From Halomonas sp. Y3 (GTDB taxonomy: Bacteria > Pseudomonadota > Gammaproteobacteria > Pseudomonadales > Halomonadaceae): a stretch of DNA of 64,000 nt. Of this stretch, positions 10,329 through 57,078 are shown one piece after another. Numbering within the stretch: the stretch's first letter is position 1; each line of letters begins with the position of its first letter. The notes below the pieces were generated by a model, which ran no database searches, had not been told where the DNA came from, and saw only the letters and a program-made list of their open reading frames with translations. Where the stretch lies: positions 3,906,001 to 3,970,000 of the forward strand of contig NZ_CP099975.1 in NCBI RefSeq assembly GCF_024137965.1, given 5' to 3'. A program made the translations under genes and the position numbers.

Positions 10329-10351
10329 AATATGCATTCAGCATGCATGTT
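10329..10351. promoter_or_regulatory. NsrR-type operator upstream of norC
   Basis: 23-bp palindrome with half-sites AATATGCATTC and GCATGCATGTT around a central A; 17 of 22 positions agree with the gammaproteobacterial NsrR pattern AAGATGYATTT-N-inverse. The symmetry extends outward (CTTTAA / TTAAAG). It lies about 90 bp before the norC start, where it would overlap the promoter expected from the FNR/DNR box at 10383. Confidence 0.8.
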
Positions 10352-10382
10352 AAAGAGTAGCAGTCGGGACCCGTCCATGACT

Positions 10383-10396
10383 TTGACGAGGGTCAA
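10383..10396. promoter_or_regulatory. FNR/DNR box upstream of norC
   Basis: TTGAC-GAGG-GTCAA, a symmetric FNR/DNR-type site. If it acts at -41.5 the transcript would start near 10348, on top of the NsrR palindrome. Confidence 0.8.
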
Positions 10397-10480
10397 TAGG
10401 GAGTGGCCGGAAGGCGGCAACAGGGGCTTGCCAGACGCGGCAAGGGGGGAAGCCGGCAGCGAACTGCCGGCAGGGAGGCA

Positions 10481-10798
10481 TCACGCCTCGGTGAGATCCT
10501 CGATCCAGGTCAGCGCGGCCACGCCGCTGGGCAGGCCCAGGGTCGGGATGGCCAGCATGGCCACCTGCTTCAGCGCCTCGGGAGATTCGCCCTCCTCCAG
10601 CCCGCGGCGGGCATGGGAGTGCACCGCGCCCTCGGAGCGCGCGCCCACGGCCAGCGCCAGCTTGACCAGGCGCCGGGTACGGGCATCCAGAGGGCCCGCC
10701 TCGGCGCACGCCTTGCCCAGGGCGGCATAGGCGTCCCACACCTCGGGAAACTGCTCGGCGACCTGGCCGGCGCCGGAGGGAAGATCCTGTTGGCTCAT
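10481..10798 (-). CDS. Carboxymuconolactone decarboxylase/AhpD-like protein, 105 aa
   Basis: Small all-helical protein of the CMD/AhpD superfamily (LDARTRRLVKLALAVGARSEGAVHSHARRGL, split here as RTRRLVKLALAVGARSEGAV then HSHARR). The CxxC redox motif of AhpD peroxidase partners is replaced by VHSH, as in many CMD-like proteins, so peroxidase activity is unlikely. It is read in the same direction as nnrS and the sirB-like gene upstream, with a 78-bp gap. A role in NO metabolism is suggested only by position. Confidence 0.8.
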   Translation of the reverse strand: MSQQDLPSGAGQVAEQFPEVWDAYAALGKACAEAGPLDARTRRLVKLALAVGARSEGAVHSHARRGLEEGESPEALKQVAMLAIPTLGLPSGVAALTWIEDLTEA

Positions 10799-10876
10799 GA
10801 AGTCACTCCTTGTCGGTGGTTATCGGACACGCCGCCCCAGTATAGGGAGCCTCGACGCTCCGCGTCATGCCGTGCC

Positions 10877-11272
10877 TCAGCCGGCCGCCAGCCAGGAGAG
10901 CGGATCATGGCGGATCGCCGCCCCCAGCATGTAGAGGAAGGTGGCCACCGCGGCCAGGGCCGCGGCACCGCGTACCGCGGGCGTGGGGCCGCGCTTGATC
11001 GCCATCGTGCCCAGCCCGATGTAGAGCAGCAGGGCGATGAGCTTGGCGGCCAGCCAGGGGTGCTGGTGGGGCCACATCTTGAGCATCACCATCAGCAGCA
11101 CGCCCAGCGTCAGCAGCAGGGTATCGATCAGGTGGGGCAGCACCTTCACCCAGCGGCGCTGACGCCAGGGCGACTCGCGCACCGACCACCAGGCCCGCAG
11201 CATGAAGAACAGCAGGCTCAGGGTCGCGGCGGTGACATGCAGGTGCTTGACCAGGAAATAGTGTTCGAGCAT
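10877..11272 (-). CDS. SirB-family membrane protein, 131 aa
   Basis: Four-helix inner-membrane protein of the SirB family (N-terminal EHYFLVKHLHVTAATLS with conserved His residues; further helices around residues 42-62, 70-88, 98-118). Start set at ATG 11272 because the family begins with this helix. It follows nnrS by 20 bp and is probably co-transcribed with it. The function of SirB proteins is not established. Confidence 0.8.
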   Translation of the reverse strand: MLEHYFLVKHLHVTAATLSLLFFMLRAWWSVRESPWRQRRWVKVLPHLIDTLLLTLGVLLMVMLKMWPHQHPWLAAKLIALLLYIGLGTMAIKRGPTPAVRGAAALAAVATFLYMLGAAIRHDPLSWLAAG

Positions 11273-11292
11273 TGGCAGCCTCCCGTGCGCCG

Positions 11293-12489
11293 TCAGCCGT
11301 CCTTGCCGTCGACCCGGCCCGTGGTCAACGGCACCGCGTAGTGGAACAGGAAGATCAGGTAGGCGATGCACCAGAAGACGATGCTCAGGTTGTAGGTCCA
11401 GTGGGTGATCTGCGGGAAGAGCGCCAGCACCGGCGAACGCAGCAGGGCGCCGGCGAACATCAGCCCCAGGGCCACGCCGATGCCCGGCAGGGTGCGGATC
11501 GGCCGGCCGGTATGCCCCAGCGAGACCCGCGCCATCATCGCCAGCATCATGCTAGCGATGCCGCCGATGGCCAGGGCATGCAGCGCCAGCTCCACGCGGA
11601 ACACCCCGGTCAGTGCCAGGGCCCACATCACCAGCCCCACCACGATGAAGGCATAGCTCAGGTGCAGCCCCCACAGCAGCGGCTCGGCAAGGGTATGCTG
11701 CCCGCCCCAGCGGGCCAGGCGCACCGCGTTGGCGGCGGCGGCCACCAGCATGGTCCAGCCCTGCAGGCCCCGGGGCAGCTCGACCTCGAGCAGCACCGCC
11801 AGCTGCAGCAGCACCACCGCGTAGATCGACCACAGCGCCAGCCGCTCCAGCATCGGCCACTCGGCGGGCTTCGGGCGGTCGAGCCGCCGGGAGGTGAAGA
11901 AGGGGATCACCCGGCCGCCCAGCAGCACCATCAGGGTGGCGATCAGCAGCACCCCCAGGTAGCCGCCCTCGCGGATCGGCGGCAGCTGTCCGCGCATCAC
12001 CCCCAGGTGCATGGCCAGATTGGCCACCGCCATGAGCAGGAAGAGCGGCACAAAGACCAGGTTGCGCCACTGGCGCACCGCCACCACCATCCGCCCCAGG
12101 GCCAGCGCCGCCAGGGGCAGGAAGGCCACGTCGATGACCAGCAGCAGCAGGGGCGGCAAGCCCATGGGAAAGGCGATCAGCAGCCTCGCCAGCAGCCAGA
12201 CCCCGACCAGGCCCAGCAGCGGAGCGCCGCGCAGGCTCGGCTGGCCGGTCCAGTTCTGGGCCGCGGTGAGCAGGAAGCCCACCGCCACCGCGGCGCCGAA
12301 GCCGAAGATCATCTCGTGCTGGTGCCACCACATCAGCCCGCCATGGGGGCGCAGCAGGATATCGCCGTGCCAGAAGGCGAACCACACCACCATGGCCAGC
12401 ACGCTGAACAGCGAGGCCAGCAGGAAGAAGGGGCGGAAGGCGAGCCGGGCGATGGGCATGCCGGCCGGCTCGGGTTGGGGTGACTGCAT
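11293..12489 (-). CDS. nnrS: NnrS family protein, 398 aa
   Basis: Heme- and copper-containing membrane protein linked to relief of nitrosative stress. Twelve hydrophobic helices; the N-terminal family block LAFRPFFLLASLFS and the HQHEMIFGFGAAVAVGFLLTA segment with conserved His residues are visible, with TAAQNWTG following. The gene lies 104 bp after nirN and is preceded by an NsrR-like site at 12560. A second nnrS paralogue is at 54701. NnrS effects are known from Rhodobacter and Vibrio; the biochemical activity remains unclear. Confidence 0.92.
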   Translation of the reverse strand: MQSPQPEPAGMPIARLAFRPFFLLASLFSVLAMVVWFAFWHGDILLRPHGGLMWWHQHEMIFGFGAAVAVGFLLTAAQNWTGQPSLRGAPLLGLVGVWLLARLLIAFPMGLPPLLLLVIDVAFLPLAALALGRMVVAVRQWRNLVFVPLFLLMAVANLAMHLGVMRGQLPPIREGGYLGVLLIATLMVLLGGRVIPFFTSRRLDRPKPAEWPMLERLALWSIYAVVLLQLAVLLEVELPRGLQGWTMLVAAAANAVRLARWGGQHTLAEPLLWGLHLSYAFIVVGLVMWALALTGVFRVELALHALAIGGIASMMLAMMARVSLGHTGRPIRTLPGIGVALGLMFAGALLRSPVLALFPQITHWTYNLSIVFWCIAYLIFLFHYAVPLTTGRVDGKDG

Positions 12490-12559
12490 GGCGAGATTCC
12501 CGACGGTTGCACTGGGGGTGTTTTCCCCATTGTGCCTTGCCCGGGACCGCCGGGACCAT

Positions 12560-12582
12560 GACAGGTATCAAGAATGCTTCTT
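12560..12582. promoter_or_regulatory. Candidate NsrR-type operator upstream of nnrS
   Basis: Half-sites GACAGGTATCA and GAATGCTTCTT around a central A; about 15 of 22 positions agree with the NsrR pattern, the half nearer nirN being the better. It sits 71 bp before the nnrS start in the nirN-nnrS gap. Confidence 0.45.
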
Positions 12583-12593
12583 ATCTCGACCGA

Positions 12594-14120
12594 TCAGTGG
12601 CTGGTGCCCTCCTCGTACTGGGTCTTGTTCCAGACGTTGTACTTGCCCGAGGGCTTGCGCATGGGCATGCGGTCCAGCTCTTCCAGGGTGTTGGCATCGA
12701 GCTTCAGCAGGTAGCCGTCGTCGTCCCAGATGCTCAGCAGCAGGGTCTCGCCGCGGCGGTCGAACTCCACGTGGGCGGCGGTCTTGCCGGGCTCCGGGAT
12801 CAGCGTCTCGACGATCTCCAGCGACTGCTTGTCGATGACGTGGATGCGGTCATGGTGGGGGCCGAAGAAGACATCCACCCAGGCGTAGGGCGAGTTCTCG
12901 TGGCTGCGCATGAAGAAGCCGGGGCCATCGGTCTCGAGATGGGTGATCAGCGACCAGTCGCTCATGTCGAACACCGAGACCTGCCCCTTGTCGATGTGGG
13001 GGATCGCCATCACCCGGCGGCCGTCCAGCTCCCAGGTGATGCCGGCGCCCAGGTGCGGCATTCCCTCCAGGGGCAGGTCCGCCACCTTGCGCTCCTCGTC
13101 CATGTCGAACACCTGCCCGCCCTGGCCGCCGCGGGCCGCGCCCACGATGTAGCGGTACGACTGATCGAAGAAGAAGTCGTCCAGGTAGTCGGGGGCCTCC
13201 ATGCGGTGCAGCGCGAAGTCGCCGACGATGGCCTCGTCGCCCTCGGCGCGCTCCTCGGGCCAGCGGATCTCCCACACCTCGGGAATGTCGCGCAGGGCCG
13301 CCACAAAGCTGTTGCGCGGTGGCGCGGTATAGACGGCACTGACCCGCGAGGTCTCGCCGTCGAGCCCCTCCACCGGGATCACCGCGATCAGGTCCAGATC
13401 ACGCGCGTCGAGCAGCACCAGGCTGTGGGGCAGGTAGTTGCCGGCCAGCACGTAGTGGCCATCGGCGGAGACGGCGATGTTGCGCATGTTGATCCCCGCG
13501 CGCACCTCGGCGGTGACCTCCAGGTTGTAGATATCGTACTTGGTCACCCAGCCGTCCCGGGAACCGAAGTAGACATAGCGGCCGTCCGGGCTGTACTTGG
13601 GGCCGCCGTGCAGCGCATAGCGGCTGGGAAAGCGAGCGATGCGCTCGAAGCGGTCGCCGTCGAGCAGGCTGACATGGTGGTCGCCGATCTCCACGACGAT
13701 GAAGAGGTTCTTGAGGTCCTCGACCTCGAACACCGGCGTATCGGGCAGGCTGCCGTAGGGGTGTCGCACCTCGTGGCTGGCGAGGATGTCGGTCTCCTCC
13801 CAGCGGGGCTCGTGCTCGGGCGGCGTGAAGATCCACTCGGCCAGCGCCGCCACCTCCTCCTCCGAGAGCAGCTCACGGTAGGCGGGCATCTGGGTGGCGG
13901 GTCGGCCGTCGTGGATCACCGAAACCGCCTCGTCGTGCTTGAGCCGCGAGAGGTTGTCCGGCAGCAGCGCCGGCCCGATGCCACCCAGTCGGCTCACGCC
14001 GTGGCAGATGGCACAGTGGCGGTTGTAGAGCATGTTGGGGTCCGGCGCCTCGGCCAGGGCCGGCAGCGCCGGCGCCAGCAGCCCCAGCAGGCCACCGAGC
14101 AGCAGGGCGGGTCGTATCAC
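12594..14120 (-). CDS. nirN: NirN, heme d1 maturation c/d1-type cytochrome, 508 aa
   Basis: Periplasmic NirS-like protein that converts dihydro-heme d1 to heme d1 at the end of the pathway. Signal peptide (residues 1-23), cytochrome c motif C36-A-I-C39-H40 followed by GIGPALLP, then an eight-bladed propeller region for d1 binding. I call it NirN, not nitrite reductase NirS, because of the NirN-like c domain and its place as last gene of nirDLGHJEN. Its start overlaps the nirE stop by 4 bp. Confidence 0.88.
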   Translation of the reverse strand: MIRPALLLGGLLGLLAPALPALAEAPDPNMLYNRHCAICHGVSRLGGIGPALLPDNLSRLKHDEAVSVIHDGRPATQMPAYRELLSEEEVAALAEWIFTPPEHEPRWEETDILASHEVRHPYGSLPDTPVFEVEDLKNLFIVVEIGDHHVSLLDGDRFERIARFPSRYALHGGPKYSPDGRYVYFGSRDGWVTKYDIYNLEVTAEVRAGINMRNIAVSADGHYVLAGNYLPHSLVLLDARDLDLIAVIPVEGLDGETSRVSAVYTAPPRNSFVAALRDIPEVWEIRWPEERAEGDEAIVGDFALHRMEAPDYLDDFFFDQSYRYIVGAARGGQGGQVFDMDEERKVADLPLEGMPHLGAGITWELDGRRVMAIPHIDKGQVSVFDMSDWSLITHLETDGPGFFMRSHENSPYAWVDVFFGPHHDRIHVIDKQSLEIVETLIPEPGKTAAHVEFDRRGETLLLSIWDDDGYLLKLDANTLEELDRMPMRKPSGKYNVWNKTQYEEGTSH

Positions 14121-14986: not shown

Positions 14987-15034
14987 GGCTCGCTCTCCCG
15001 GGATGTCACGGTCATGGTCGTCGCCTGGCGCGGC

Positions 15035-16234
15035 TCAGAGCTCGGTGGCCTGGATGGCCTCATAGGGCGCCGCCACGCGCCGGTCATGGCCCTCGTCGAC
15101 GCCGATCTCGGCGTTGGTCAGGTAGCAGCCGGGATCCTCCTCCCAGGGATCGCCGGTCACCTTCCAGGCCCGCACGCGGGTATTGCCGTTGCAGATGTCG
15201 AGGAAGCGACACTCGGCACAGCGCCCCTTGAGCGGCCGAGGGCGCTGGCGGAAGCCGGCCATCAGCGGATCGGAGGTGTCCCGCCAGATCTCGGAGAAGG
15301 GGCGGCTGCGCACGTTGCCCAGGTCGTGGTCCCACCAGAAGGTGTCGGGGTGGACGTTGCCGAGGTTGTCGATGTTGGCGATGTGCTCGCCGGAGGCGTT
15401 GCCGCCCCAGTTGACCAGGCGCTGTTTCAGGTCGTCGGCCCGGTCGGGGAAGTGCTCACGGGCCCACATCAGCAGGAAGGGGCCATCGGCATCGTTGTTG
15501 CCGGTGACGTACTCGCGCTCCACGCCACGCTCGAGCTCCGCGCGGCAGTGGTCGAACAGCCGGGTCATGGCGTCGCGGGTCATGCGGTACCAGGCGTCCT
15601 GCTTGCTGTGGCGCCGGCCGCGACCGCCGTAGTTGAGGTGAGAGAGGTAGAACTTGTCGACGTCGTGCTCGTCGAGCAGCGCCAGGATGTCGCCCAGCTG
15701 CTCGTAGTTCTCGCGGGTCAGGGTGAAGCGCAGGCCCACCTTGATGCCGCGCTCCTTGCACAGCTTCACCGCATGCATGGACTCCCGGAAGGCGCCCTGG
15801 CGCTGGCGGATGACGTCGTGGGTGGCCTCGAGGCCGTCGATGCTGATGCCCACGTAGTCGTAGCCGACGTCGGCGATCTCGTCGATGTTGGACTCGTCGA
15901 TCAGGGTGCCGTTGGTGGAGAGCCCGGTATAGATGCCCAGTTCCCGGGCACGCCGCGACAGCTCGAAGATGTCCGGCCGCATCAGCGGCTCGCCGCCGGA
16001 GAGGATCAGCGCCGGCACCCGGAAGCCGTGCAGGTCGTCGAGGACCGCTCGAGCCTCGGCGGTGGAGAGCTCCCCGGCGAAGTCGATGTCCGCCGAGGTG
16101 GTGTAGCAGTGCTTGCAGGTCAGGTTGCAGCGACGGATCAGGTTCCAGATCACCACCGGACCCGGCGGCTTGCGGGCCGGCGCGAGCGGCGTCGGCTCCA
16201 TCAGGGACTTGATATAGCGGGTGACGCGGAACAT
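15035..16234 (-). CDS. nirJ: NirJ, radical SAM heme d1 synthase, 399 aa
   Basis: Radical SAM enzyme that replaces propionate side chains during heme d1 formation. The [4Fe-4S] motif CNLTCKHC (CxxxCxxC) lies near residue 36, followed by LSGGEPLMRPD, and the C-terminal SPASM-like cluster motif CAECRFLDICNGNTRVRA plus a further Cys (PGCYLT). Length is usual. Start 16234 has AGGAGGAGG. It is 24 bp after nirH. Confidence 0.95.
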   Translation of the reverse strand: MFRVTRYIKSLMEPTPLAPARKPPGPVVIWNLIRRCNLTCKHCYTTSADIDFAGELSTAEARAVLDDLHGFRVPALILSGGEPLMRPDIFELSRRARELGIYTGLSTNGTLIDESNIDEIADVGYDYVGISIDGLEATHDVIRQRQGAFRESMHAVKLCKERGIKVGLRFTLTRENYEQLGDILALLDEHDVDKFYLSHLNYGGRGRRHSKQDAWYRMTRDAMTRLFDHCRAELERGVEREYVTGNNDADGPFLLMWAREHFPDRADDLKQRLVNWGGNASGEHIANIDNLGNVHPDTFWWDHDLGNVRSRPFSEIWRDTSDPLMAGFRQRPRPLKGRCAECRFLDICNGNTRVRAWKVTGDPWEEDPGCYLTNAEIGVDEGHDRRVAAPYEAIQATEL

Positions 16235-16258
16235 GCGGACCTCCTCCTGCGGCGGGCC

Positions 16259-18252: not shown

Positions 18253-18275
18253 AAGATGCTTTCATGAAGCATCTT
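18253..18275. promoter_or_regulatory. NsrR-type operator upstream of nirD
   Basis: Perfect palindrome: half-sites AAGATGCTTTC and TGAAGCATCTT with central A, agreeing with the NsrR pattern at nearly every position. Best of the nine sites. Only 25 bp before the nirD start, so bound repressor would block transcription or initiation. Confidence 0.88.
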
Positions 18276-18316: not shown

Positions 18317-18330
18317 TTGACGCAAGTCAA
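18317..18330. promoter_or_regulatory. FNR/DNR box facing nirD
   Basis: TTGAC-GCAA-GTCAA, symmetric. Centre is about 95 bp from the nirD start; acting at -41.5 it would put the start of transcription near 18282, just before the NsrR palindrome at 18253-18275. Confidence 0.78.
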
Positions 18331-18353
18331 AAGAGGTATTTTCAATGTGGCTT
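18331..18353. promoter_or_regulatory. Second NsrR-like site in the nir divergent region
   Basis: Half-sites AAGAGGTATTT and CAATGTGGCTT around T; left half 10 of 11, right half about 7 of 11. Abuts the FNR/DNR box at 18317-18330 directly. Confidence 0.5.
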
Positions 18354-18387
18354 CACGGCCACGGGGGCTTCTCAACCGGCCCCCCGA

Positions 18388-18401
18388 TTGATATCCGTCA
18401 A
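18388..18401. promoter_or_regulatory. FNR/DNR box facing nirC
   Basis: TTGAT-ATCC-GTCAA, one mismatch from TTGAT-N4-ATCAA, about 86 bp before the nirC start (centre to start). Confidence 0.75.
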
Positions 18402-18480
18402 GGCGCCACCCCGCCGCCGGTCGGACACTGCAGCCAGATCCGCCGCCGCCGGCTGCCGACATCCGCTGCGAGAGACGCCC

Positions 18481-18837
18481 ATGCTTCCGTCCGCCCGATT
18501 CCTGATCTGCCTGAGCCTGCTGCTGCCACTCGCGGCGGTGGCCGGCGACGGCGAGGCCTCGCCCGATGCCGAACGCCTCGATGCCGAACGCCTCGAGACC
18601 CTGCTCTACCAGGACTGCGGCTCCTGCCACGGCATGACCCTGCGCGGCGGCCTCGGCCCCGCCCTTCCCCGAGACCGCATGCAGGCGCTCAGCCCCAAGG
18701 CGCTCACCCACATCATCCGCCACGGCATCCCCGGCACCGCCATGCCCGGCTGGGAGGCCCTGCTCAGCGAAGCGGAGGCCCGCTGGATCGCCGACCACCT
18801 GCAGACCGATAACCGCCTGACGTCCCTGGACGACTGA
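18481..18837 (+). CDS. nirC: NirC, small periplasmic cytochrome c, 118 aa
   Basis: Single-heme c-type cytochrome of the c55x/NirC type: signal peptide (residues 1-21), heme motif C46-G-S-C49-H50, and distal Met in PGTAMPGWE. NirC is proposed to supply electrons to NirS or to heme d1 maturation steps. ATG 18481 is chosen because it opens on the signal peptide. nirF follows after 19 bp; the pair keeps the C-F order of Pseudomonas. Confidence 0.85.
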   Translation: MLPSARFLICLSLLLPLAAVAGDGEASPDAERLDAERLETLLYQDCGSCHGMTLRGGLGPALPRDRMQALSPKALTHIIRHGIPGTAMPGWEALLSEAEARWIADHLQTDNRLTSLDD

Positions 18838-18856
18838 TGCTCCCGAGGAGACCCCC

Positions 18857-20065
18857 ATGCCGCTGATTCGCCCCCTGAAGACCCTGGTTGCCGCCGGCGC
18901 CCTGTCGCTGCTGGCCGCCGGCCCTGCCCTGGCCGAGCCCGCCGTGGAACTGCGCGGCACCGGCGACCTGGGCGTGGTGATCGAGCGCGCCACCGGCAGC
19001 GTGGCGCTGGTCGACACCACGCACAAGACGGTGCTCAGGCACGTCGAGGGCTTCGGCGACCTCTCCCACGCCTCGGTGAAGTTCACCCGCGACGCCCGCC
19101 ACGCCTTCGTGTTCGGCCGCGACGGCGGGCTGACCCGGCTCGACCTGCTCACCGGCGAGATCGACGGGCGCATCATCCAGGGGGGCAACAGCATCGGCGG
19201 CGCCATCTCCCAGGACGGCCGCTACGTGGCGGTGGGCAACTACGAACCGGGCGGCGTGAAGGTCTTCGACGTGGAGACCATGGAGCTGGTCGTCGACGTG
19301 CCGGCCACCTACGAGAAGCCCGACGGCACCACCGACCAGGCCAAGGTGGTGGGCGTGGTGGACGTGCCGGGCAACAGCTTCGTCTTCAGCCTGTTCGAGG
19401 CCGGCGAGATCTGGACCCTGGACATGTCCACCGAGGAGCCCGAGGTGACCCGCTATCGCGACGTGGGCAGCATGCCCTACGACGCCCTGATCACCGCCAA
19501 CGGGCGCTACTACATCGCCGGGCTGTTCGGCGAGGACGGCATGGCGCTGCTCGACCTCTGGCACCCGGAGAAGGGCGTACAGCGCATCCTGCCCGACTAC
19601 GGCCGCGGCGAGGAGCGCCTGCCGGTCTACAAGATGCCCCACCTGGAGGGCTGGGCCATGGCCGGCGACCAGGCCTTCTTCCCCGCCGTGGGCCGTAACG
19701 AGGTGCTGGTGGCCGACACCGGCGACTGGTCGCTGACCGATCGCATCGAGGTCCACGGCCAGCCGATCTTCGTGATGAGCCGCCCCGACGAGCAGCAGGT
19801 GTGGGTCACCTTCGCTCACCCGAACAACGACCGCGTTCAGGTGATCGACACCCGCACCCACGAGGTGATCGAGACGCTCTCCCCCGGCGAGTCGATTCTG
19901 CACAAGGAGTTCACCCCCCGCGGCGAGCACATCTGGATCTCCGCCCGGGACAGCGGCCACGTGGTGGTCTACGACACCCGCACCTTCGAGGAGCTGGCCC
20001 GCCTGCCGGCGGAGTCGCCCAGCGGCATCTTCTTCACCCACCGGGCCCACCGCATCGGGCTGTGA
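18857..20065 (+). CDS. nirF: NirF, periplasmic heme d1 biosynthesis protein, 402 aa
   Basis: Propeller protein related to the d1 domain of NirS and NirN but without a cytochrome c domain. Signal peptide (about residues 1-27, ending ALAEP), then RGTGDLGVVIERATGSVALV and repeated beta-propeller blades; late His residues (SILHKEFTPRGEHIWIS) match the family. NirF binds a heme d1 precursor and is needed for its maturation. Start has GAGGAGACCCCC upstream. The convergent marR gene follows after 15 bp. Confidence 0.93.
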   Translation: MPLIRPLKTLVAAGALSLLAAGPALAEPAVELRGTGDLGVVIERATGSVALVDTTHKTVLRHVEGFGDLSHASVKFTRDARHAFVFGRDGGLTRLDLLTGEIDGRIIQGGNSIGGAISQDGRYVAVGNYEPGGVKVFDVETMELVVDVPATYEKPDGTTDQAKVVGVVDVPGNSFVFSLFEAGEIWTLDMSTEEPEVTRYRDVGSMPYDALITANGRYYIAGLFGEDGMALLDLWHPEKGVQRILPDYGRGEERLPVYKMPHLEGWAMAGDQAFFPAVGRNEVLVADTGDWSLTDRIEVHGQPIFVMSRPDEQQVWVTFAHPNNDRVQVIDTRTHEVIETLSPGESILHKEFTPRGEHIWISARDSGHVVVYDTRTFEELARLPAESPSGIFFTHRAHRIGL

Positions 20066-21257: not shown

Positions 21258-21280
21258 AAGATGTATTTTACATGCATCTT
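21258..21280. promoter_or_regulatory. NsrR-type operator upstream of hmp
   Basis: Half-sites AAGATGTATTT and ACATGCATCTT with central T; about 20 of 22 positions agree with the NsrR pattern. It lies 40 bp before the hmp start and no FNR/DNR box accompanies it, matching the classic NsrR control of hmp. Confidence 0.88.
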
Positions 21281-21320: not shown

Positions 21321-22490
21321 ATGCTGACCCCTGCCCAGGAAGCCCTGATCGCCGCCACCGCCCCCACCGTCGCCGAGCATCTCGACGCCATCACCCAACG
21401 CTTCTATCCGCTGATGTTCGACCGCTACCCCGAAGTGAAGCCGCTGTTCAACGAGGCCCACCAGGCCGACGGCGGGCAGCCGAGGGCCCTGGCCGGCGCC
21501 GTGCTGGCTTATGTGCAGCTACGCCATGATCGCGAGAAGGTGCGCGAGACCCTGGCCACGGTGGTCAGCAAGCATGTTTCGCTCGACATCCGCCCCGAGC
21601 ACTACCCCATCGTCGGCGAGTGCCTGATGGCCGCCATCGGCGAGGTGCTCGGTGACGCCGTGACACAGGAGATCGCCGCCGCCTGGAGCGGTGTCTACGA
21701 GGAGCTGGCCGGCCTGCTGATCGAGCTGGAGGAGTACCGCTATCGGGAGTTCGAGCAGCGCCCCGGCGGCTGGCGCGGTACCCGCACCTTCCGCATCGTC
21801 GAGACCCGCCAGGAGAGCGCGGTGATCCGCTCCTTCGTGCTGGCGCCCGTGGACGGCGAGCCGGTGGCCGAGCATGCCCCGGGCCAGTACATCGGCGTCC
21901 GGCTGACCCTCGACGGCGAGCCGCTCTATCGCCACTACAGCCTGTCGGCCCTGCCCGACGGCCGCACCTACCGGATCTCCGTCAAGCACGAGCCGGAAGG
22001 CCGCGCCAGCCGCCACCTGCACGACGCCATGGCGGTGGGCGATACCCTGGAGCTGCTGCCACCGGCCGGCGACCTGACCCTGGCCGAGGGTAGCGAGCCG
22101 CTGCTGCTGGCCTCCGGCGGGGTCGGCCAGACGCCGATGCTGCCTCTGGCCCGCCAGGCGCTGGCACAGGGCCGCCGCGTGGTCTACCTGCACGCCGCCC
22201 TGGATGCCGACCATCACGCCTTCCGCGACGAGGTCGCGGCCCTGGCCGAGGCGCACCCGGAACAGCTGCACACGGTGACCGTCCACGAGCGCGGCGAGGC
22301 GGCCGACCATACCGGCCGCGTCGACCGCGCACTGCTGGCGCGGCTGCTGCCGGAGGACGCACGCTGCTACACCGTGGGCCCCCAGGGCTTCATGAGCGCC
22401 GTCGATCGGGCCCTGGCCGAACTGGGTGTGCCGGCCGAGCGCCGCCACCACGAGCACTTCGGCCCCTCGCGCCCCCTCGACGCCGCCTGA
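21321..22490 (+). CDS. hmp: Flavohemoglobin Hmp, NO dioxygenase, 389 aa
   Basis: Oxidises NO to nitrate with O2 and NAD(P)H, cytoplasmic. N-terminal globin domain (residues 1-137) with proximal heme His85 in VSKHVSLDIRPEHY; ferredoxin-reductase-like FAD domain with RHYSLSALPDGRTYRISVK; NAD domain with LLASGGVGQTPMLPLA. Length typical. ATG 21321 has GAGGAGCCTGTC upstream; the longer frame starts inside the NsrR operator and is not used. A short GCCGCC/GGCGGC stem overlaps the stop, and a group II intron begins about 22 bp further on. Confidence 0.97.
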   Translation: MLTPAQEALIAATAPTVAEHLDAITQRFYPLMFDRYPEVKPLFNEAHQADGGQPRALAGAVLAYVQLRHDREKVRETLATVVSKHVSLDIRPEHYPIVGECLMAAIGEVLGDAVTQEIAAAWSGVYEELAGLLIELEEYRYREFEQRPGGWRGTRTFRIVETRQESAVIRSFVLAPVDGEPVAEHAPGQYIGVRLTLDGEPLYRHYSLSALPDGRTYRISVKHEPEGRASRHLHDAMAVGDTLELLPPAGDLTLAEGSEPLLLASGGVGQTPMLPLARQALAQGRRVVYLHAALDADHHAFRDEVAALAEAHPEQLHTVTVHERGEAADHTGRVDRALLARLLPEDARCYTVGPQGFMSAVDRALAELGVPAERRHHEHFGPSRPLDAA

Positions 22491-22595: not shown

Positions 22596-23993
22596 CTAAG
22601 CCCTCTTGACCGTATCGAGTACCGAGATCAGGCCCAGCCGCTCGAACCACTTCCGCGGCAGGGCCTGATTCATGTGCGAGGCACCGGCGTTCCACCAGGC
22701 GCCTCGCCCATTTCCCGCTGATTTCCAGGCACGCTGGTCGTCCAGGCCCAGCGCCAGGAGCTTGCGGCGCCGGGTCCCTGGGCGCTTCCACTGCCGCCAG
22801 ATCACGCAACGCAGTCGGCGACGTATCCAACCATCCAGCGCTTCCAGCGGCCGCTCTACGTCGACGAGGGAGAAGTAGTTGGCCCAGCCCCGCAGGACCG
22901 GGGTCAACTCTTCGATAACGCGCCGTATGTTGCGCCCCCTGCCACGCTTGAGGATCTCGCGGACACGCTGCATCAGGCGCTGCAGGCTGGCCTTGGCCAG
23001 CGTCAGCTTCGGCCGCTTGTGCCGGGTCAGCGTGTAGCCCAGGTACCCCCGGTTCCAGGGTCGGTCCACCGCGCTCTTGTCGCGATTGACCGTCAGCCTG
23101 AGTGAGTTCTCGAGAAAATCACTCAGACTGGCCATGACGCGCTCGCCCGCCCGCCGACTCTTGACGTACACCTGTACGTCGTCGGCGTAGCGGCAGAAGC
23201 GGTGACCGCGGCGTTCCAGTTCCTTGTCCACATCACCCAGCAGGATATTGGCCAGCAGCGGGCTGAGTGGCCCGCCCTGGGGTGTGCCCTGCCGGCGTGG
23301 TGCGACCAGGCCGTCCTGGAACATCCCGGCTTCCAGATAGCGGCGGATCAGGCATAACGCTCGCTTGTCGCGGATGCGGCGCGCGACCCGCGCCATCAGC
23401 AGGTCGTGATTCACCCGGTCGAAGAAGGCTTCCAGGTCGAGGTCGACCACCCAGCGATGGCCGGCAGTGACATGGGCCTTCATCGCCGAGACGGCCTGCT
23501 GGGCACTGCGCCCTGGCCGATAGCCGTAACTCGATGTGGAGAATCCCGGATCGAAGATCGGCGTCAGCACCTGCAGCAGCGCCTGCTGGATCAGCCGGTC
23601 GGTAACCGTGGGGATGCCGAGCTGTCGCGTTCCGCCCTTGGGCTTGGGGATCTCGACGGCTCGGATCGGGCTGGGGTGGTACTCACCGGCCAGTAGCCGT
23701 TCGCACAGCGTTGGCCAGCATTCCTTCAGGTGGTCGGCCAACTGGTGGACCGTCATGCCATCGGCACCCGGCGCCCCCTGGCTGGCGACCACCCGACGGT
23801 AAGCCCGCTCCATGTTGGCCTTCTCTACCACGGCCTCCATAAGCGGGGCGGACTCCGCTTTCGTCCACGGTGACGACGCCGGGACCGTCTCGACGCCCAC
23901 CGGCCGGGACCCGGGGTACTGCCCCTGCCCCTCTGGGTGGGTGGCGGTATCAGCGCCACTTTCTGTCTTCATGATCGATCCTCGAGACGTCAT
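22596..23993 (-). CDS. ltrA: Group II intron reverse transcriptase/maturase (LtrA-like), 465 aa
   Basis: Intron-encoded protein that assists splicing and carries out target-primed reverse transcription. RT motifs: PKPKGGTRQLGIPTVTDRLI (about residue 114), FSTSSYGYRPGRSAQQAV, VVDLDLEAFFDRVNHD, TPQGGPLSPLLANI and the active site RYADDVQVYV. A maturase domain follows (LTPVLRGWANYFS). It ends without an H-N-H endonuclease domain, in line with class C. An in-frame alternative start (MKTESG) lies 7 codons inside. All motifs are intact, so the intron may be active. Confidence 0.95.
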   Translation of the reverse strand: MTSRGSIMKTESGADTATHPEGQGQYPGSRPVGVETVPASSPWTKAESAPLMEAVVEKANMERAYRRVVASQGAPGADGMTVHQLADHLKECWPTLCERLLAGEYHPSPIRAVEIPKPKGGTRQLGIPTVTDRLIQQALLQVLTPIFDPGFSTSSYGYRPGRSAQQAVSAMKAHVTAGHRWVVDLDLEAFFDRVNHDLLMARVARRIRDKRALCLIRRYLEAGMFQDGLVAPRRQGTPQGGPLSPLLANILLGDVDKELERRGHRFCRYADDVQVYVKSRRAGERVMASLSDFLENSLRLTVNRDKSAVDRPWNRGYLGYTLTRHKRPKLTLAKASLQRLMQRVREILKRGRGRNIRRVIEELTPVLRGWANYFSLVDVERPLEALDGWIRRRLRCVIWRQWKRPGTRRRKLLALGLDDQRAWKSAGNGRGAWWNAGASHMNQALPRKWFERLGLISVLDTVKRA

Positions 23994-24493: not shown

Positions 24494-24952
24494 TCAATAC
24501 GTCTCGAGGCGGGCGAGGTCCCGGGTCTGCAGCCGCGCCTCGGCCTCCTGCTGTTCGGCAAGATGCTGGAAAAGCTCGACCTCTTCGGGAATCGAGGCCA
24601 GCTCGGCGCGCAGCCGATACATGTCCTCGAGGGTCTGGTGGGCGGTCATTACGTTGGCCAGGATATCCTGCACGTCATGACAGCCCAGGCAGGGGGGAAT
24701 GCGCTCCAGTACGGCGGGGTGGCCGAACTCCTGGCTGTCGATCAGCCAGGTGGTCAGGAGCCCCTGATCGGCATCCTCGAGATAGGCTGCAATGCCCTCC
24801 TGCAGGCGCCGCTCGCGGTCGGCGAGGAACACCAGCGCCATGCGCATGCGCTCATCGGCTGCCGCCTCCGCTAGCCGGGCATACTGCACACCCAGCTGCC
24901 TGTGGAAATCATGGATCCACTCGAGCAGATCCTTCACCTGTCGAAAGGCCAT
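24494..24952 (-). CDS. Unknown helical protein with CxxCH, ferritin-like pattern, 152 aa
   Basis: Not recognised as a named family. It is almost wholly helical with regularly placed Glu, His and Asp (LLEWIHDFHRQLGVQYARLA, then FLADRERRLQEGIAAYLE), like four-helix ferritin or hemerythrin-type di-iron proteins. One CLGCH near residue 89 would look like a heme c site, but there is no signal peptide, so metal binding in the cytoplasm is likelier. It is the last gene of a three-gene operon after a small secreted protein and an SdhB-like subunit; GGGAGG precedes the start. A redox or NO-related role is inferred from the NsrR-like site upstream. Confidence 0.6.
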   Translation of the reverse strand: MAFRQVKDLLEWIHDFHRQLGVQYARLAEAAADERMRMALVFLADRERRLQEGIAAYLEDADQGLLTTWLIDSQEFGHPAVLERIPPCLGCHDVQDILANVMTAHQTLEDMYRLRAELASIPEEVELFQHLAEQQEAEARLQTRDLARLETY

Positions 24953-24982: not shown

Positions 24983-25690
24983 TCAGCTGCCGCGCGCCAG
25001 CAGCATCGCCTTGATCTGGCCGATGGCGCGCATCGGGTTGAGCCCCTTGGGGCAGACCCAGGTGCAATTGGCGATCTGCCGGCAGCGGAACACGCTGAAG
25101 GGGTCGTCGAGGGTGGCCAGCCGTTCGTCGGTGGCGGTGTCGCGACTGTCGATCAGGAAGCGATAGGCCTGGATCAGGCCGGCCGGGCCGATGTACCTGT
25201 CGGGATTCCACCACCAGGAGGGGCAGGCCGAACTGCAGCAGGCGCAGAGGATGCACTCGTAGAGGCCGTCGAGCTTCTCGCGATCCTCGGGGCTCTGACG
25301 TCGCTCGATGGCGGGGGGCGCCTGGTCGTTGATCAGCCAGGGCCGGATCTTCTCGAACTGGCGGAAGAAGAGACGCTGGTCGACGACCAGGTCGCGGATC
25401 ACCGGCATTCCCGGCAGCGGACGCAGGATCAGGGTGTCACCGCCGCCCAGTACCTCTTCCACAGCTGTGATACAGGCCAGGCCGTTCCTGCCGTTGATGT
25501 TCATGCCGTCGGAACCGCACACCCCTTCCCGGCAGGAGCGCCGATAGGCCAGGGTGGCATCCTCCTGCTTCAGGTGCTCGAGGACGTCGAGCACCATGGC
25601 CTTGCGGAAGCGCTCCTCGACCTCCAGCGTCTCCATCCGTGGCAGGTCATCCTGCTCGGGATGATAGCGATAGAGCCGCACCTGTATCAT
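24983..25690 (-). CDS. Lone SdhB/FrdB-type iron-sulfur subunit, 235 aa
   Basis: Iron-sulfur subunit of the succinate dehydrogenase/fumarate reductase family. All three cluster motifs are present: [2Fe-2S] CREGVCGSDG with a later Cys (residues 53-73, Asp in the usual E. coli SdhB position), [4Fe-4S] CILCACCSSACPSWWW (about 150) and [3Fe-4S] CRQIANCTWVCPKGLNP (about 205). No sdhA, sdhC or sdhD is nearby. Instead it lies between a small secreted protein and a helical CxxCH protein. It may be a second copy of SdhB used under NO stress, or serve another complex; the sequence does not decide. Confidence 0.88.
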   Translation of the reverse strand: MIQVRLYRYHPEQDDLPRMETLEVEERFRKAMVLDVLEHLKQEDATLAYRRSCREGVCGSDGMNINGRNGLACITAVEEVLGGGDTLILRPLPGMPVIRDLVVDQRLFFRQFEKIRPWLINDQAPPAIERRQSPEDREKLDGLYECILCACCSSACPSWWWNPDRYIGPAGLIQAYRFLIDSRDTATDERLATLDDPFSVFRCRQIANCTWVCPKGLNPMRAIGQIKAMLLARGS

Positions 25691-25726: not shown

Positions 25727-26074
25727 TCACTCGCGCCAGTAGTTGTTGGCTGCGGCGACGGTCTGGAAATGCGTGGCGATGACGTGGGAGGCCGCGATCA
25801 GGCTGTCGGGCACATCGTGATACTCGGCTCGCTTCTGACGGCGGATCTCGGCATCCTTCTGGGTAGCCGCCACCCCCTTCTGGGACAGGGTGATGGCCAG
25901 GGCGAAGCCTTCCTGAGGGGTCTCGGTGATCAGGCTCGGCAGCCAGGTATCCTCTGTGGATGACGCCTCGTGCTCATCCGCACCGGCGATGCTGCCCAAG
26001 GCCAAGGCTGTCGCCAGCATCAGCCCAACGGCGACCTTCAGTCGAAAAGATGACGGGTGATGGATAATGGTCAT
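25727..26074 (-). CDS. Small secreted protein of unknown function, 115 aa
   Basis: N-terminal signal peptide (positively charged start, hydrophobic LKVAVGLMLATALALGSIAG, cleavage near GADEHE). The mature part is short, acidic and helical (PDSLIAASHVIATHFQTVAAANN). No domain recognised. AGGAGGCCATC precedes the start. It is the first gene of the operon that continues with the SdhB-like subunit, and an NsrR-like site lies 29 bp upstream. Confidence 0.65.
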   Translation of the reverse strand: MTIIHHPSSFRLKVAVGLMLATALALGSIAGADEHEASSTEDTWLPSLITETPQEGFALAITLSQKGVAATQKDAEIRRQKRAEYHDVPDSLIAASHVIATHFQTVAAANNYWRE

Positions 26075-26102: not shown

Positions 26103-26125
26103 AAGATGCAAAATATATACTTCTT
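26103..26125. promoter_or_regulatory. NsrR-type operator upstream of the sdhB-like operon
   Basis: Half-sites AAGATGCAAAA and ATATACTTCTT around T; 8 and 9 of 11 positions agree with the NsrR half-site. Located 29 bp before the first start codon. No FNR/DNR box seen beside it. Confidence 0.6.
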
Positions 26126-31559: not shown

Positions 31560-31581
31560 AGATAGTAATTGATTACTATCT
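31560..31581. promoter_or_regulatory. Perfect palindrome, TetR operator
   Basis: AGATAGTAAT-TG-ATTACTATCT, 10-bp perfect arms with 2-bp centre. Its place directly before the TetR gene marks it as the autoregulatory operator. Confidence 0.85.
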
Positions 31582-31622
31582 AGCATGATGGCGAGCGTAC
31601 CGCCTGCCGACATCATGCGACG

Positions 31623-31735: not shown

Positions 31736-31758
31736 AAGAGGTATTAAATATACATCTT
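31736..31758. promoter_or_regulatory. NsrR-type operator upstream of ytfE
   Basis: Half-sites AAGAGGTATTA and ATATACATCTT around A; 9 and 10 of 11 positions agree. ytfE is among the best-known NsrR targets, which supports the call. Confidence 0.82.
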
Positions 31759-52439: not shown

Positions 52440-52479
52440 GCGGATGGCTCCGGAAGTAAGTCGGTTTATCGGAAAAGGG

Positions 52480-52974: not shown

Positions 52975-53249
52975 GACAGCTCTCCTGAGGATAACCACGC
53001 GGCCGAGGCCGCCGAACCGTTCATCCTAGGCCGGTGTTCCCCGGGCTGCACTGACATGCATCATGTCGCCGGACAGCCCTCGATCACCCGCGGCCCGCCT
53101 ACCATATATAGACCATATCGCCTCGGCAAGCCCCATATCTGGTGCAGGCGAGGCGACATCATGACCCATTTTCATTTGACAGCGAGAGAGCCGCGGCGTG
53201 GCGCGGCCAGGGGCGGGAGACGACGCGTCGATCGGCTGCGCCGACTCGC
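52975..53249. other. Promoter gap before ubiT-nrdJab
   Basis: 275 bp without a convincing gene. It has AT-rich CCATATATAGACCATAT around 53102-53118, a possible -10 region for the minus strand, and a TCGCCTCG (53118-53125) / CGAGGCGA (53149-53156) inverted repeat. No clear FNR/DNR or NsrR site found. Confidence 0.3.
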
Positions 53250-54635: not shown

Positions 54636-54700
54636 CGTGAAACAGCCTCTTCAACCGGGGGCGGCACCGCGGCGCCGCCGTATGGGGCAGAGTATGCCAT

Positions 54701-55909
54701 TCAGGGCCCGGCGCGTCGGTACCCTTCTCGAGGTAGCTGACCTGGATCAAGCCTGCGGCGCGCCGTGCGGCGGCACCAGTGGAGCAGGCGCCAGGCGGCA
54801 AGCCCCCAGGCCAGGCTCCAGAGCGCGGCGGAACTCCACAGCAGGGCCAGCCAGTGCTGGCCGGCATCCAGCGCCAGCAGGCGCAGCAGCGCGGCCAGGG
54901 AGAAAAGCAGCGCCAGGGGCAACAGCAGCGTCTCCGCCTCGGGGCGCGCCTTGGCGCGCAGGATCGCCTGGCGCAGCATGATGCCGGAGGCCAGGGTGCC
55001 GAGCGCCCCGATGGTGAAGGCGTGCAGGGTGGCGCTGGCGTGGGGCTGCTGCCACCAGGCCCGGGCCAGCAGCAAGAGGCCCACCCCCAGCCAGGCGTAG
55101 CCCACCATGAGCCCCAGCAGGTCGGGTCGCCCGCGGCAGGCCCAGGGCCGCCAGCGCCATAGTCGCCACAGCACCAGCAGCCCGGCCGCCAGAACCAGCC
55201 CCGCGGCCAGCGGCCGCAGCGGCGGCCACAGCATCAGCAACGGCGTCACCCCGAGCAGCACGATCAGCGCCGCCTCGAGGCGCGGCTGGACCCCCGCCCC
55301 GGCCTGGCGCCGGCTCGCCATCAGGTGGCCGTTCACCGCCGGCGCCAGCACCCGCCCGCCCATGAACACCATCAGCAGCACCAGCCACAGCACCCCCTGA
55401 TGCATCACCAGCGCCGTGGTCGGCATGGCGCCCAGGTGGCGCCAGACCAGGGTGACCAGGGCCAGCAGGCAGAGCAGGCCCAGCAGCGGCGAGAGCACCC
55501 GGTTGCGCCACTTCTTGGCGGCGATGAAGCGCGGCACCAGGCGCCAGCCGAGCAGCAGCACGAAGGCCCCATCGGCCAGGATCACCGGCAGGGCGACGGG
55601 CCACAGCAGGCCGCCCAGGCGTGCCGCCAGCCAGAGGCCGCCCAGTAGCCAGAGCCAGCGCTGGTTGAGCGGCCCCAGCAGGTAGCCGGCGATCACCGCC
55701 AGGGCGAAGCCGAACAGCAGCTCGCGACCATGTGCCGCAGGGGAGGCCAGCAGCGGCACCTCCTGCAGGTGATAGAGTGACAGCAGGGAAAGCGGCACCA
55801 GCAGGGCCGCGTGCAGGGCCGCCAGCGGGAAGAGCCAGCGCCAGGCCGGAACGGTGGAAGCGGTTCTCCCGGGGCGATTCACGGAAGGCTTTGCGTCACT
55901 CTTTAACAT
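54701..55909 (-). CDS. nnrS: NnrS family protein, second copy, 402 aa
   Basis: Twelve-helix NnrS paralogue (WRWLFPLAALHAALLVPLSLL at the start, HGRELLFGFALAVIAGYLLGPLNQ with the conserved His, HQGVLWLVLLMVFMGGRVLAP, LHAFTIGALGTLASGIMLR). It differs strongly from the copy at 11293. The assumed ATG 55909 lies within an NsrR-like site and lacks a clear ribosome site, so the start is uncertain. It is divergent from the ybaN-like gene and nsrR. Confidence 0.88.
   Translation of the reverse strand: MLKSDAKPSVNRPGRTASTVPAWRWLFPLAALHAALLVPLSLLSLYHLQEVPLLASPAAHGRELLFGFALAVIAGYLLGPLNQRWLWLLGGLWLAARLGGLLWPVALPVILADGAFVLLLGWRLVPRFIAAKKWRNRVLSPLLGLLCLLALVTLVWRHLGAMPTTALVMHQGVLWLVLLMVFMGGRVLAPAVNGHLMASRRQAGAGVQPRLEAALIVLLGVTPLLMLWPPLRPLAAGLVLAAGLLVLWRLWRWRPWACRGRPDLLGLMVGYAWLGVGLLLLARAWWQQPHASATLHAFTIGALGTLASGIMLRQAILRAKARPEAETLLLPLALLFSLAALLRLLALDAGQHWLALLWSSAALWSLAWGLAAWRLLHWCRRTARRRLDPGQLPREGYRRAGP
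54737..54750. promoter_or_regulatory. FNR-type box for hemN
   Basis: Read toward hemN: TTGAT-CCAG-GTCAG, one mismatch. Centre 108 bp before the hemN start, inside the last codons of nnrS; gives hemN its own anaerobic promoter. Confidence 0.65.
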
Positions 55910-55927
55910 GCATGTAAAATACTATTT
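55905..55927. promoter_or_regulatory. NsrR-type operator in the nnrS/ybaN divergent gap
   Basis: Half-sites AACATGCATGT and AAATACTATTT around A; about 17 of 22 positions agree. It overlaps the annotated nnrS start and could serve ybaN-nsrR as well. Confidence 0.6.
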
Positions 55928-55959
55928 ATTGAGCATCGCCGCCACGGGGGAGGTTCTGC

Positions 55960-56373
55960 ATGACACACCCGGTCTCGCGTATCGCCTGGAGCGGGCTGGC
56001 CTATGGCTGCATCGGCCTGGGCACCGCCGGCCTGGTAGTGCCGCTGCTGCCCACCACGCCCTTCCTGCTGGTGGCGGCCTGGGCCGCCCCCAAGGGCTCC
56101 CCGCGGCTGGCCCGATGGCTGCACGCGCATCCGCGCCTGGGCCCCACCCTGCACGCCTGGCGGGAGCAGCGCGCGGTGCCGCGCCGGGCCAAGCGGCTGG
56201 CGCTGGTGCTGCTGCTGATGAGCTGGCTGGTGCTGTGGGTCGGCGGCGCGGCGCCCGCCGTGCTGGCACTGACCGGGCTGCTGTTCTGCGGCGTGGCAGG
56301 CTTCCTGCTGACGCGACCCGATGCCGCAGGCGATGGCGCCCTCACGGCAACGAGCGATAAACTGATAGAATAG
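55960..56373 (+). CDS. YbaN/DUF454 family membrane protein, 137 aa
   Basis: Small inner-membrane protein with the DUF454 start GCIGLGTAGLVVPLLPTTPFLLVAAW (quoted as GLGTAGLVVPLLPTTPF), WLHAHPRLG and a final two-helix hairpin. GGGGAGG precedes ATG 55960. It lies 57 bp before nsrR and may be co-transcribed. DUF454 function is unknown; some members neighbour heme or NO genes. Confidence 0.82.
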   Translation: MTHPVSRIAWSGLAYGCIGLGTAGLVVPLLPTTPFLLVAAWAAPKGSPRLARWLHAHPRLGPTLHAWREQRAVPRRAKRLALVLLLMSWLVLWVGGAAPAVLALTGLLFCGVAGFLLTRPDAAGDGALTATSDKLIE

Positions 56374-56430
56374 AAGCGTCTTATCTTATCAAGTTTGACT
56401 AATATCAAGCAGAGAGGTGGCAGCCCTCGT

Positions 56431-56907
56431 ATGCACCTGACCCGCTTTACCGACTACTCCATTCGCGTGCTGATCTACCTGGCGGCGAAGGGGGAAGCGC
56501 GATCCACGATCCATGAGATCGCCACCAGCTTCGATGTCTCCCGCAACCACCTGATGAAGGTGGTCCAGGACCTGAGCCACAAGGGCTACATCACCGCTAT
56601 TCGCGGCAAGAACGGCGGCCTGCTGCTCAAGAAGGCCCCCGAGGAGATCCGCCTGGGCAGGCTGGTGCGCGATACCGAGAATGACCTGGAGCTGGTGGAG
56701 TGCTTCGGCGACAGCAACGAGTGCAAGATCACCCCGGCCTGCCGGCTCAAGCCGATCCTGGCCGAGGCGCTGCGTGCCTTTCTCGCCGTGCTCGACAAGT
56801 ACACCCTGGCCGACATGCTGGGCCCCCAGCAGCCGCAGCTGGTCGAGCTGCTGAGAATCGAGCCATTGGCCAGCAAGGCCGGCAGCACCCCGCCGCTGGC
56901 CTCCTGA
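56431..56907 (+). CDS. nsrR: NsrR, NO-sensing Rrf2-family repressor, 158 aa
   Basis: Rrf2 winged-helix protein with a [4Fe-4S] cluster; NO damages the cluster and relieves repression. It starts MHLTRFTDYSIRVLIYLA (NsrR type), recognition helix VSRNHLMKVVQDLSHKGYI, wing GKNGGLLL, and three cluster cysteines C91, C98, C104 in VECFGDSNECKITPAC. The cognate palindromes are found at nine places in this window. ATG 56431 matches the family start, although the nearest purine site is about 14 bases away. Confidence 0.95.
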   Translation: MHLTRFTDYSIRVLIYLAAKGEARSTIHEIATSFDVSRNHLMKVVQDLSHKGYITAIRGKNGGLLLKKAPEEIRLGRLVRDTENDLELVECFGDSNECKITPACRLKPILAEALRAFLAVLDKYTLADMLGPQQPQLVELLRIEPLASKAGSTPPLAS

Positions 56908-56964
56908 CGGCCGCCGGCTTGCGCTGCCGGGCGGCGTCGGCGATGCTTGAAAGTGCGTTTTGCC

Positions 56965-56978
56965 ATGACATGGGTCAT
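56965..56978. promoter_or_regulatory. FNR/DNR-like palindrome upstream of the cytochrome
   Basis: ATGAC-ATGG-GTCAT, symmetric with the TGAC/GTCA core but A/T at the outer bases; 108 bp before the cytochrome start and 85 bp before an NsrR-like site. Confidence 0.5.
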
Positions 56979-57055
56979 GGCTGCCCACGGCGCCCTGCGC
57001 CATCATGGGCCCAGACATCGGAGGCATCGGCGGCATCCGATTTTTTCACCGCCTA

Positions 57056-57078
57056 AAGATGCATTCTGGAGACATGTT
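57056..57078. promoter_or_regulatory. NsrR-like operator overlapping the cytochrome ribosome site
   Basis: Half-sites AAGATGCATTC and GGAGACATGTT around T; 10 and about 7 of 11 positions agree. It ends at the ribosome-binding GGAG/start region of the gene at 57080. Confidence 0.6.

Follow-up and report, generated by a model that had tools for sequence, protein, structure and literature searches.

NsrR-type palindromes in a denitrification island of Halomonas sp. Y3: predicted operators at nitric oxide defence and heme-d1 genes

We analysed a stretch of 64,000 nucleotides from Halomonas sp. Y3 (the window; C1:3906001-3970000 of a 4.11 Mb genome; 67% GC), which, judged by its genes, is a denitrification island. 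Nine A/T-rich, partly palindromic 23-mers in the window match the published NsrR motif gATGyAT-N5-ATrCATc, and an nsrR gene lies in the same island. These palindromes are probably operators of that NsrR, which would through them gate denitrification and the defence against nitric oxide (NO). The new part would be the control of the heme-d1 nir genes by NsrR. An earlier interpretation of the letters alone (the sequence-only reading) had proposed such sites at the nir genes; they recur in Halomonadaceae, and we found no earlier report of this control among the open-access papers listed.

A symmetric matrix was trained on the four sites named as strongest in the sequence-only reading (18253, 21258, 31736 and 10329), and a second matrix was built from all nine. 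With the four-site matrix the nine sites occupy ranks 1-9 in the window with scores of 20.4-38.0, the five sites outside the training set scoring 20.4-29.3, and leave-one-out scoring within the nine-site set gives 17.7-36.6. Rank 10, at 3321, scores 15.1 (17.7 with the nine-site matrix), and profile searches gave no family for the frame behind it. The highest four-site score in 13 control stretches of the same genome, 260 kb in all, is 13.6, which supports the claim that the nine sites are real; the nine-site matrix has a single match of at least 14 in this control DNA (14.9). The reversed window peaks at 14.9, and 50 Markov-1 simulated windows have a mean maximum of 12.5 and a highest value of 19.1. 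A covariance model built from the nine sites (R1, with a uniform background) lacked the power to scan the genome and was set aside: at E ≤ 10 it gives five matches, of which four are in the window and the fifth is at 1435327, the best having an E of 0.03.

The sequence-only reading gave all nine sites the form AAGATGYATTT-N-AAATRCATCTT and placed all of them in promoter gaps. The 23-mers stand, but only two of the nine lie within three mismatches of this strict consensus. Nine of 11 palindromic positions match at 10329, 18253 and 21258, eight at 31736 and seven at 26103 and 57056, while 18331 and 55905 (six each) and 12560 (five) are poor palindromes. The position in promoter gaps holds for seven sites. 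Site 57056-57078 includes the probable ribosome-binding site of the cytochrome gene, a single base separating its end from the ATG at 57080, and its left half plus GGAG is found again in 7/13 loci of relatives; site 55905-55927 runs into the ATG of nnrS2 if the longest frame is taken. The nnrS site has one good NsrR half, and a Crp/Fnr-like box, ATGACAGGTATCAA (12558-12571), covers the other half.

Conservation, promoter layout and the regulator

Conservation was counted with the nine-site matrix in the best 80 of 583 nirF loci, 31 of them from Halomonadaceae (618,641 bases) and 49 from other groups. The sequence-only reading named an equal share of matches in coding and in promoter DNA as grounds for refuting it, and this is not what is seen: the Halomonadaceae loci contain 86 matches of at least 18 outside matched genes and zero within the 406,506 bases of these genes. 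Upstream stretches reach 18 in 11/11 cases for norC, 13/14 for hmp and 21/24 for nnrS; on the nirC side 12/18 do so, and 18/18 reach 15. The gene of the hexameric tyrosine-coordinated heme protein (HTHP) has such a site in 6/9 cases, sdhB2, which usually follows HTHP, in 2/8, and nsrR in 0/2. None of 189 upstream stretches from thirteen other gene types reaches 18. In the 49 other loci, norC has a match in 12/20.

Crp/Fnr-type boxes (TTGAYN4RTCAA) are present at the norC, nir and nirS promoters. Within the 31 Halomonadaceae loci, 38 of the 65 site-box pairs less than 160 bp apart have their centres 47.5-52.5 bp from each other, and part of the remaining pairs are second boxes of the same promoter. 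At nosR of three loci (L190, L191 and L193) the spacing is 46.5-47.5. Outside Halomonadaceae, 14 loci (most of the named ones from Marinobacter) have a box that overlaps the norC site, with a spacing of 15.5 bp. Crp/Fnr activators typically bind at -41.5. If the activator stands there, an NsrR centre 47-52 bp from the box would therefore fall at about +6 to +11, over the transcription start. This layout suggests a DNR-type activator upstream and NsrR as a roadblock over the start.

As proposed earlier, nsrR lies in the same island as the sites. Three Rrf2 genes of the genome exceed the cut-off, and a fourth match is weak (22.4 bits). Of the three, one is IscR-like, one encodes a SUF regulator and only the window gene is NsrR-like. 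Its Rrf2 domain (PF02082) scores 122.2 bits against a cut-off of 30. Three C-terminal cysteines and an N-terminal FTD align with S. coelicolor NsrR (5n07), whose three cluster positions are Cys in 5n07 and Ala in the mutant structure 5n08. An nsrR match is present in 44 of 101 family genomes and a nirS match in 11, and 11/11 nirS genomes carry one of 22 close nsrR genes. Palindromes average 6.73 per genome with nirS and a close nsrR (n=11), 3.82 with a close nsrR without nirS (n=11), 3.00 with a distant nsrR (n=22) and 1.60 without nsrR (n=57), and a backward-pattern control gave 0.73, 1.36, 2.18 and 0.32 in the same order; rank tests on the palindrome counts, which ignore the relatedness of the genomes, gave p values of 8.6e-9 and 3.3e-7. 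A site of at least 18 precedes nsrR or its cluster in 25/30 nsrR loci, our own included. A Crp/Fnr-type box, TTGACTAATATCAA (56395-56408), stands immediately before the nsrR start, and L128 and L130 have boxes at the corresponding position; a Crp/Fnr-type activator may control nsrR itself.

From the sites, their conservation and spacing, the gene identities and the cysteines of NsrR and SdhB2, all of which are read directly, we infer binding, repression, a response to NO, the identity of the activator and the role of a spare SdhB as follows. Without NO, NsrR with an intact Fe-S cluster would sit on or near the transcription start and block two classes of promoter. The first, controlled by NsrR alone, would comprise hmp, HTHP-sdhB2-orf152 and ytfE. 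The second, controlled by NsrR together with a DNR-type Crp/Fnr activator, would comprise the promoters of norCBQD, nirD-N and nirC-F (nirS in relatives). It would also take in nnrS, with its two overlapping motifs, and the nosR of some relatives. NO would nitrosylate the NsrR cluster and the repressor would leave; with the activator present and NsrR gone, the pathway and the NO defences would be switched on together. From the HTHP operon, a spare SdhB would be made and would take the place of the succinate dehydrogenase iron-sulfur subunit damaged by NO.

Several observations weigh against this interpretation. The best curated model for the window protein, NsrR NF008240, gives 150.2 bits, under the NCBIfam cut-off of 182, and for this reason we call the protein NsrR-type and not an NCBIfam equivalog. 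The related genomes behind the conservation counts are not independent of each other, and genomes without nsrR still average more palindromes than their backward control. Only 6/29 nirD-side stretches in Halomonadaceae reach 18, in part because relatives have nirS ahead of nirD; of eight loci with that order, five (L168, L170, L171, L172 and L173) have sites ahead of nirS or nirC, and three (L167, L169 and L174) have none of at least 18. NosR has sites in 6/14 loci. The sequence-only reading had named hmp, nnrS and ytfE as NsrR targets: the hmp site is widely kept and the nnrS site is composite, but the ytfE site is conserved in just 1/5 Halomonadaceae loci that show ytfE. The nir genes of the 49 loci outside Halomonadaceae are mostly without sites (nirD 0/43, nirC 1/22). 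The nirS of the window lineage has no NsrR site (best score 11.3), only a Crp/Fnr box. One match elsewhere in the genome, 1572694 (18.1), falls within coding sequence where the DNA is A/T-rich and is probably due to chance.

The state of this nirS fits an alternative in which a DNR-type activator alone runs the denitrification genes, the norC and nir palindromes are occupied but minor, and the genes truly under NsrR are limited to hmp, HTHP-sdhB2 and the nsrR cluster. DNR and NnrR are the usual nir-nor-nos regulators, and the nnrS site overlaps a box; however, the norC sites are found in every Halomonadaceae locus counted, are as strong as those of hmp (median 34.0 vs 34.1) and keep a fixed spacing to the box, and we judge this alternative improbable. 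Lower still is the probability that the motif belongs to a different Rrf2 protein (IscR or the SUF regulator) or to a further regulator, for sites flank nsrR in most of its loci, the motif equals that published for NsrR and the IscR and SUF regulator genes lie elsewhere in the genome, even if Rrf2 proteins bind similar A/T-rich palindromes and genomes without detected nsrR retain some copies. That the nine sites are chance or generic A/T-rich promoter sequence is highly improbable given the simulated windows, the control stretches, the conservation in 31 loci and 200 symmetric column permutations of the matrix, which gave a mean of 0.15 matches of at least 18 per window, although the worst permuted matrix gave 4 such matches with a top score of 27.6, a sign that the window contains A/T-rich promoter DNA. 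Operators of the island's own NsrR remain our preferred interpretation.

Genes of the island and sites beyond the window

The nor/nir part of the island holds norB, norC, nor-type accessory genes, nnrS, a gene of cytochrome and heme-d1 type (nirN-like), a nirE-like methyltransferase gene and nirJ (Table 1), with four siroheme-decarboxylase-like genes, whose names nirH, G, L and D are inferred from position. Other genes are nirC-F, hmp, HTHP-sdhB2-orf152, ytfE, U32 peptidase genes, an nrdJ-type reductase gene, ubiT, hemN, nnrS2, ybaN, nsrR, a cytochrome c gene and nos genes. The closest named nirF relatives, among the best 80 of 583 matches, are Halomonas sp. A11-A (97%) and Billgrantia species. 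A frame at 18345-18812 was rejected as a gene; it is the wrong frame, the real gene being the cytochrome frame that ends at 18837.

Table 1 Sites, boxes and genes in the window. Scores are those of the four-site matrix.
Feature	Position	Strand	Remarks
NsrR-type site of norCBQD	10329-10351	-	score 32.7
Crp/Fnr-type box TTGACGAGGGTCAA at norC	10383-10396		centre to centre 49.5 bp from NsrR site 10329
Composite nnrS site	12560-12582	-	score 21.6
NsrR-type site of nirDLGHJEN	18253-18275	-	score 32.8; box TTGACGCAAGTCAA at 59.5 bp
Crp/Fnr-type box TTGACGCAAGTCAA between the two nir sites	18317-18330		
Second NsrR-type site, nirD/nirC gap	18331-18353		score 20.4, weak in window; leave-one-out 17.7
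Crp/Fnr-type box TTGATATCCGTCAA	18388-18401		
NsrR-type site of hmp	21258-21280	+	score 38.0
NsrR-type site of HTHP-sdhB2-orf152 operon	26103-26125	-	score 26.7
NsrR-type site of ytfE/dnrN	31736-31758	+	score 34.6
NsrR-type site between nnrS2 and ybaN-nsrR	55905-55927	+	score 23.6
NsrR-type half-site fused to ribosome-binding site of c-type cytochrome	57056-57078	+	score 29.3
norB	8398-9744	-	PF00115
nirJ	15035-16234	-	TIGR04051, 628 bits
nirC-like cytochrome c before nirF (18857-20065)	18481-18837	+	PF13442; ATG start
hmp	21321-22490	+	NF009805, 437.7 bits, over cut-off
orf152	24494-24952	-	helical protein, no family
sdhB2, second stand-alone SdhB	24983-25690	-	PF13085; PRK05950 340 bits, cut-off 228
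HTHP	25727-26074	-	PF11534, 113 bits, cut-off 25; solved relative 2oyy
ytfE/dnrN/scdA	31848-32504	+	PF01814 and PF04405
nsrR	56431-56907	+	Rrf2 family, NsrR-like

The nirS of the window lineage stands apart from the heme-d1 genes and beside a Crp/Fnr gene (the pair at L027:10090-11760 and 11878-12645). The product of this neighbouring gene has cNMP and Crp helix-turn-helix domains, and its best NCBIfam model is FtrB with 123 bits, below the cut-off of 211. Other Halomonadaceae have a different nirS (43-46% identical), placed between nirD and nirC. The parts of PMC8014003 covered here describe two nirS types and call the neighbouring Crp/Fnr gene dnr1.

The sequence-only reading had confined the regulon to one window; sites elsewhere in the genome contradict this. 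The genome was searched by pattern and then by matrix, and the total is a lower bound because the pattern scan missed 12560 and 18331. The strongest site outside the window, 1435327 (33.0), precedes a 64-residue CCGSCS-motif protein (L029:10327-10570; TIGR04101, 46.3 bits, cut-off 28), and in a relative (G063) a 31.6 site lies 45 bp upstream of the same protein; we found no open-access paper containing the word CCGSCS. Further sites lie between a CcmF/NrfE-type gene and a cyclophilin gene (3986709; 28.3), between a TonB receptor gene and an ABC transporter-nnrS3 cluster, the third with nnrS (3153269; 24.6), at nosR (3971444; 23.6) and, weakly, in the gap before the cydAB genes of bd oxidase (1513682, L030:8682; 19.7).

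Two other elements were seen in the window. A group II intron reverse transcriptase gene (TIGR04416, 415.9 bits) occupies 22596-23993, with hmp on one side and the orf152 end of the HTHP operon on the other. A palindrome, GATAGTAATTGATTACTATC (31560-31585), precedes the tetR gene of a resistance-nodulation-division pump cluster, occurs also before ytfE in L053 and L055, and is a probable TetR operator.

The HTHP-sdhB2-orf152 operon

The site at 26103 had been assigned to an sdhB-like operon. The site stands, but the first gene encodes HTHP and the sdhB-like gene is only the second. SdhB2 is a complete SdhB, 69% identical to the copy in the normal sdhCDAB, and retains every one of the eleven cysteines in the part of E. 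coli SdhB (1nek_B) that aligns with it. No sdhA, sdhC or sdhD lies beside sdhB2. The canonical copy is found in the order sdhA-sdhB-sucA, and the best NsrR score in the 12-kb region of the canonical sdhCDAB is 11.2, short of a site. In an alignment of nine complete SdhB2 copies (the window and 8 of the 14 loci with a match), all nine have CSSACPSWWW and CRQIANCTWVC, whereas the corresponding stretches of the normal copy read CSTSCPSFWW and CRGIMNCVAVC; we take these motifs to be the loops near the 3Fe-4S cluster and the quinone in complex II structures. NO attacks such iron-sulfur clusters, which would make a spare SdhB a sensible load for an NO operon.

We propose that sdhB2 encodes a spare SdhB inducible by NO, which would offer a testable means of maintaining respiration in the presence of NO. 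A fuller reading, which we offer tentatively and hold to be less probable than not, is a NO-inducible complex II maintenance module, in which a spare Fe-S subunit with altered 3Fe-4S and quinone surroundings would replace nitrosylated SdhB and HTHP would handle NO or peroxynitrite in the envelope. SdhB2 would then assemble into complex II with SdhA, SdhC and SdhD.

Two of the three HTHP genes that miss a site are in L053 and L055, where a site scoring 30-31 stands before sdhB2, which there precedes HTHP; L064 has sdhB2 without an HTHP match and without a site ahead of it. HTHP is rare (9/274 class genomes and 9/398 phylum genomes). Leaving out our own locus and a 23-residue fragment (L163), 5/12 HTHP loci of other genomes (L155, L156, L162, L179 and L180) have a site of at least 20 at HTHP or the likely operon head; one of these loci also has hmp, and one nnrS, pointing the same way. 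With 7/12 lacking such a site, HTHP was rejected as a general NsrR target. Of 27 plasmid HTHP records five were examined; two have a nearby Rrf2 gene and a truncated hemoglobin gene, and three have no evident NO genes. In the parts of PMC4813847 covered, HTHP reduces peroxide and is given no physiological role.

Profile searches gave no family for orf152, and its AlphaFold model is poor (mean predicted local distance difference test score, pLDDT, 58.4; predicted template modelling score, pTM, 0.46). Its family occurs in 13 of 369 class genomes, and the fetched loci outside our own have no SdhB, HTHP or strong site alongside. A second protein of this family is encoded in the same genome (C1:1660677-1661141, L222; 150.9 bits), with no site of at least 15 nearby.

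If the module proposal is true, one Fe-S subunit of a respiratory complex would be swapped under NO control, and HTHP would gain a physiological role. It offers testable guesses as to why Halomonadaceae have a second SdhB and what HTHP is for.

Relation to known systems

Rock (2007) and Heurlier (2008) are said to have described a compact NsrR regulon in Neisseria, with NsrR over the nitrite and NO reductase genes. Neisseria has copper NirK and quinol NorB, whereas the Halomonas island has cd1/heme-d1 genes and norCB with a Crp/Fnr box at a fixed spacing.

The NsrR regulons of beta- and gammaproteobacteria in the parts of Rodionov 2005 (PMC1274295) covered here share with ours the motif, the nsrR neighbourhood and the members hmp, dnrN/ytfE, nnrS and norB, and include mixed NsrR/DNR systems in four denitrifying betaproteobacteria. 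NsrR at norB is predicted there for Neisseria, C. violaceum, Polaromonas, R. solanacearum and two Burkholderia species. NsrR control of nor genes is therefore not new, and of the statement that it is less documented at norCBQD the site survives and the novelty does not. The NsrR-controlled nitrite reductase in those parts is NirK, with nirS named alongside DNR, and they contain no heme-d1 operon, HTHP, second sdhB, CCGSCS protein or Halomonas.

In Magnetospirillum, according to the parts of PMC11014258 covered, NsrR binds and represses the norC, nirT, nosZ and napF promoters, and nirTQ adjoins nirS. The consensus derived there is very loose, whereas the Halomonas sites are strong palindromes; a magnetosome claim of the same group is disputed in the part of PMC12774639 covered. 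The island of the H. desiderata group (PMC8014003, in the same parts) has the same layout: nirS1 is separated from nirCFDLGHJEN and lies near nos, with dnr1 next to it, and NsrR and nnrS are also near nos. Those parts give no binding sites and leave regulation open. Among the open-access matches listed, subscription papers and RegPrecise being outside this scope, none places NsrR sites at heme-d1 genes, puts HTHP under NsrR control or describes an sdhB paralogue controlled by NO. An apparent mention of sdhB in PMC4724949 was discarded, 'sdHb' there meaning single-domain hemoglobin.

With the predicted operators, the reach of NsrR would go beyond NO defence and take in the heme-d1 side of denitrification and, partly, nosR. 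This lineage is used for saline denitrification, and its promoter layout predicts a simple gate, with activator present and NO present. Such a gate would bear on the amount of NO and N2O that these bacteria release.

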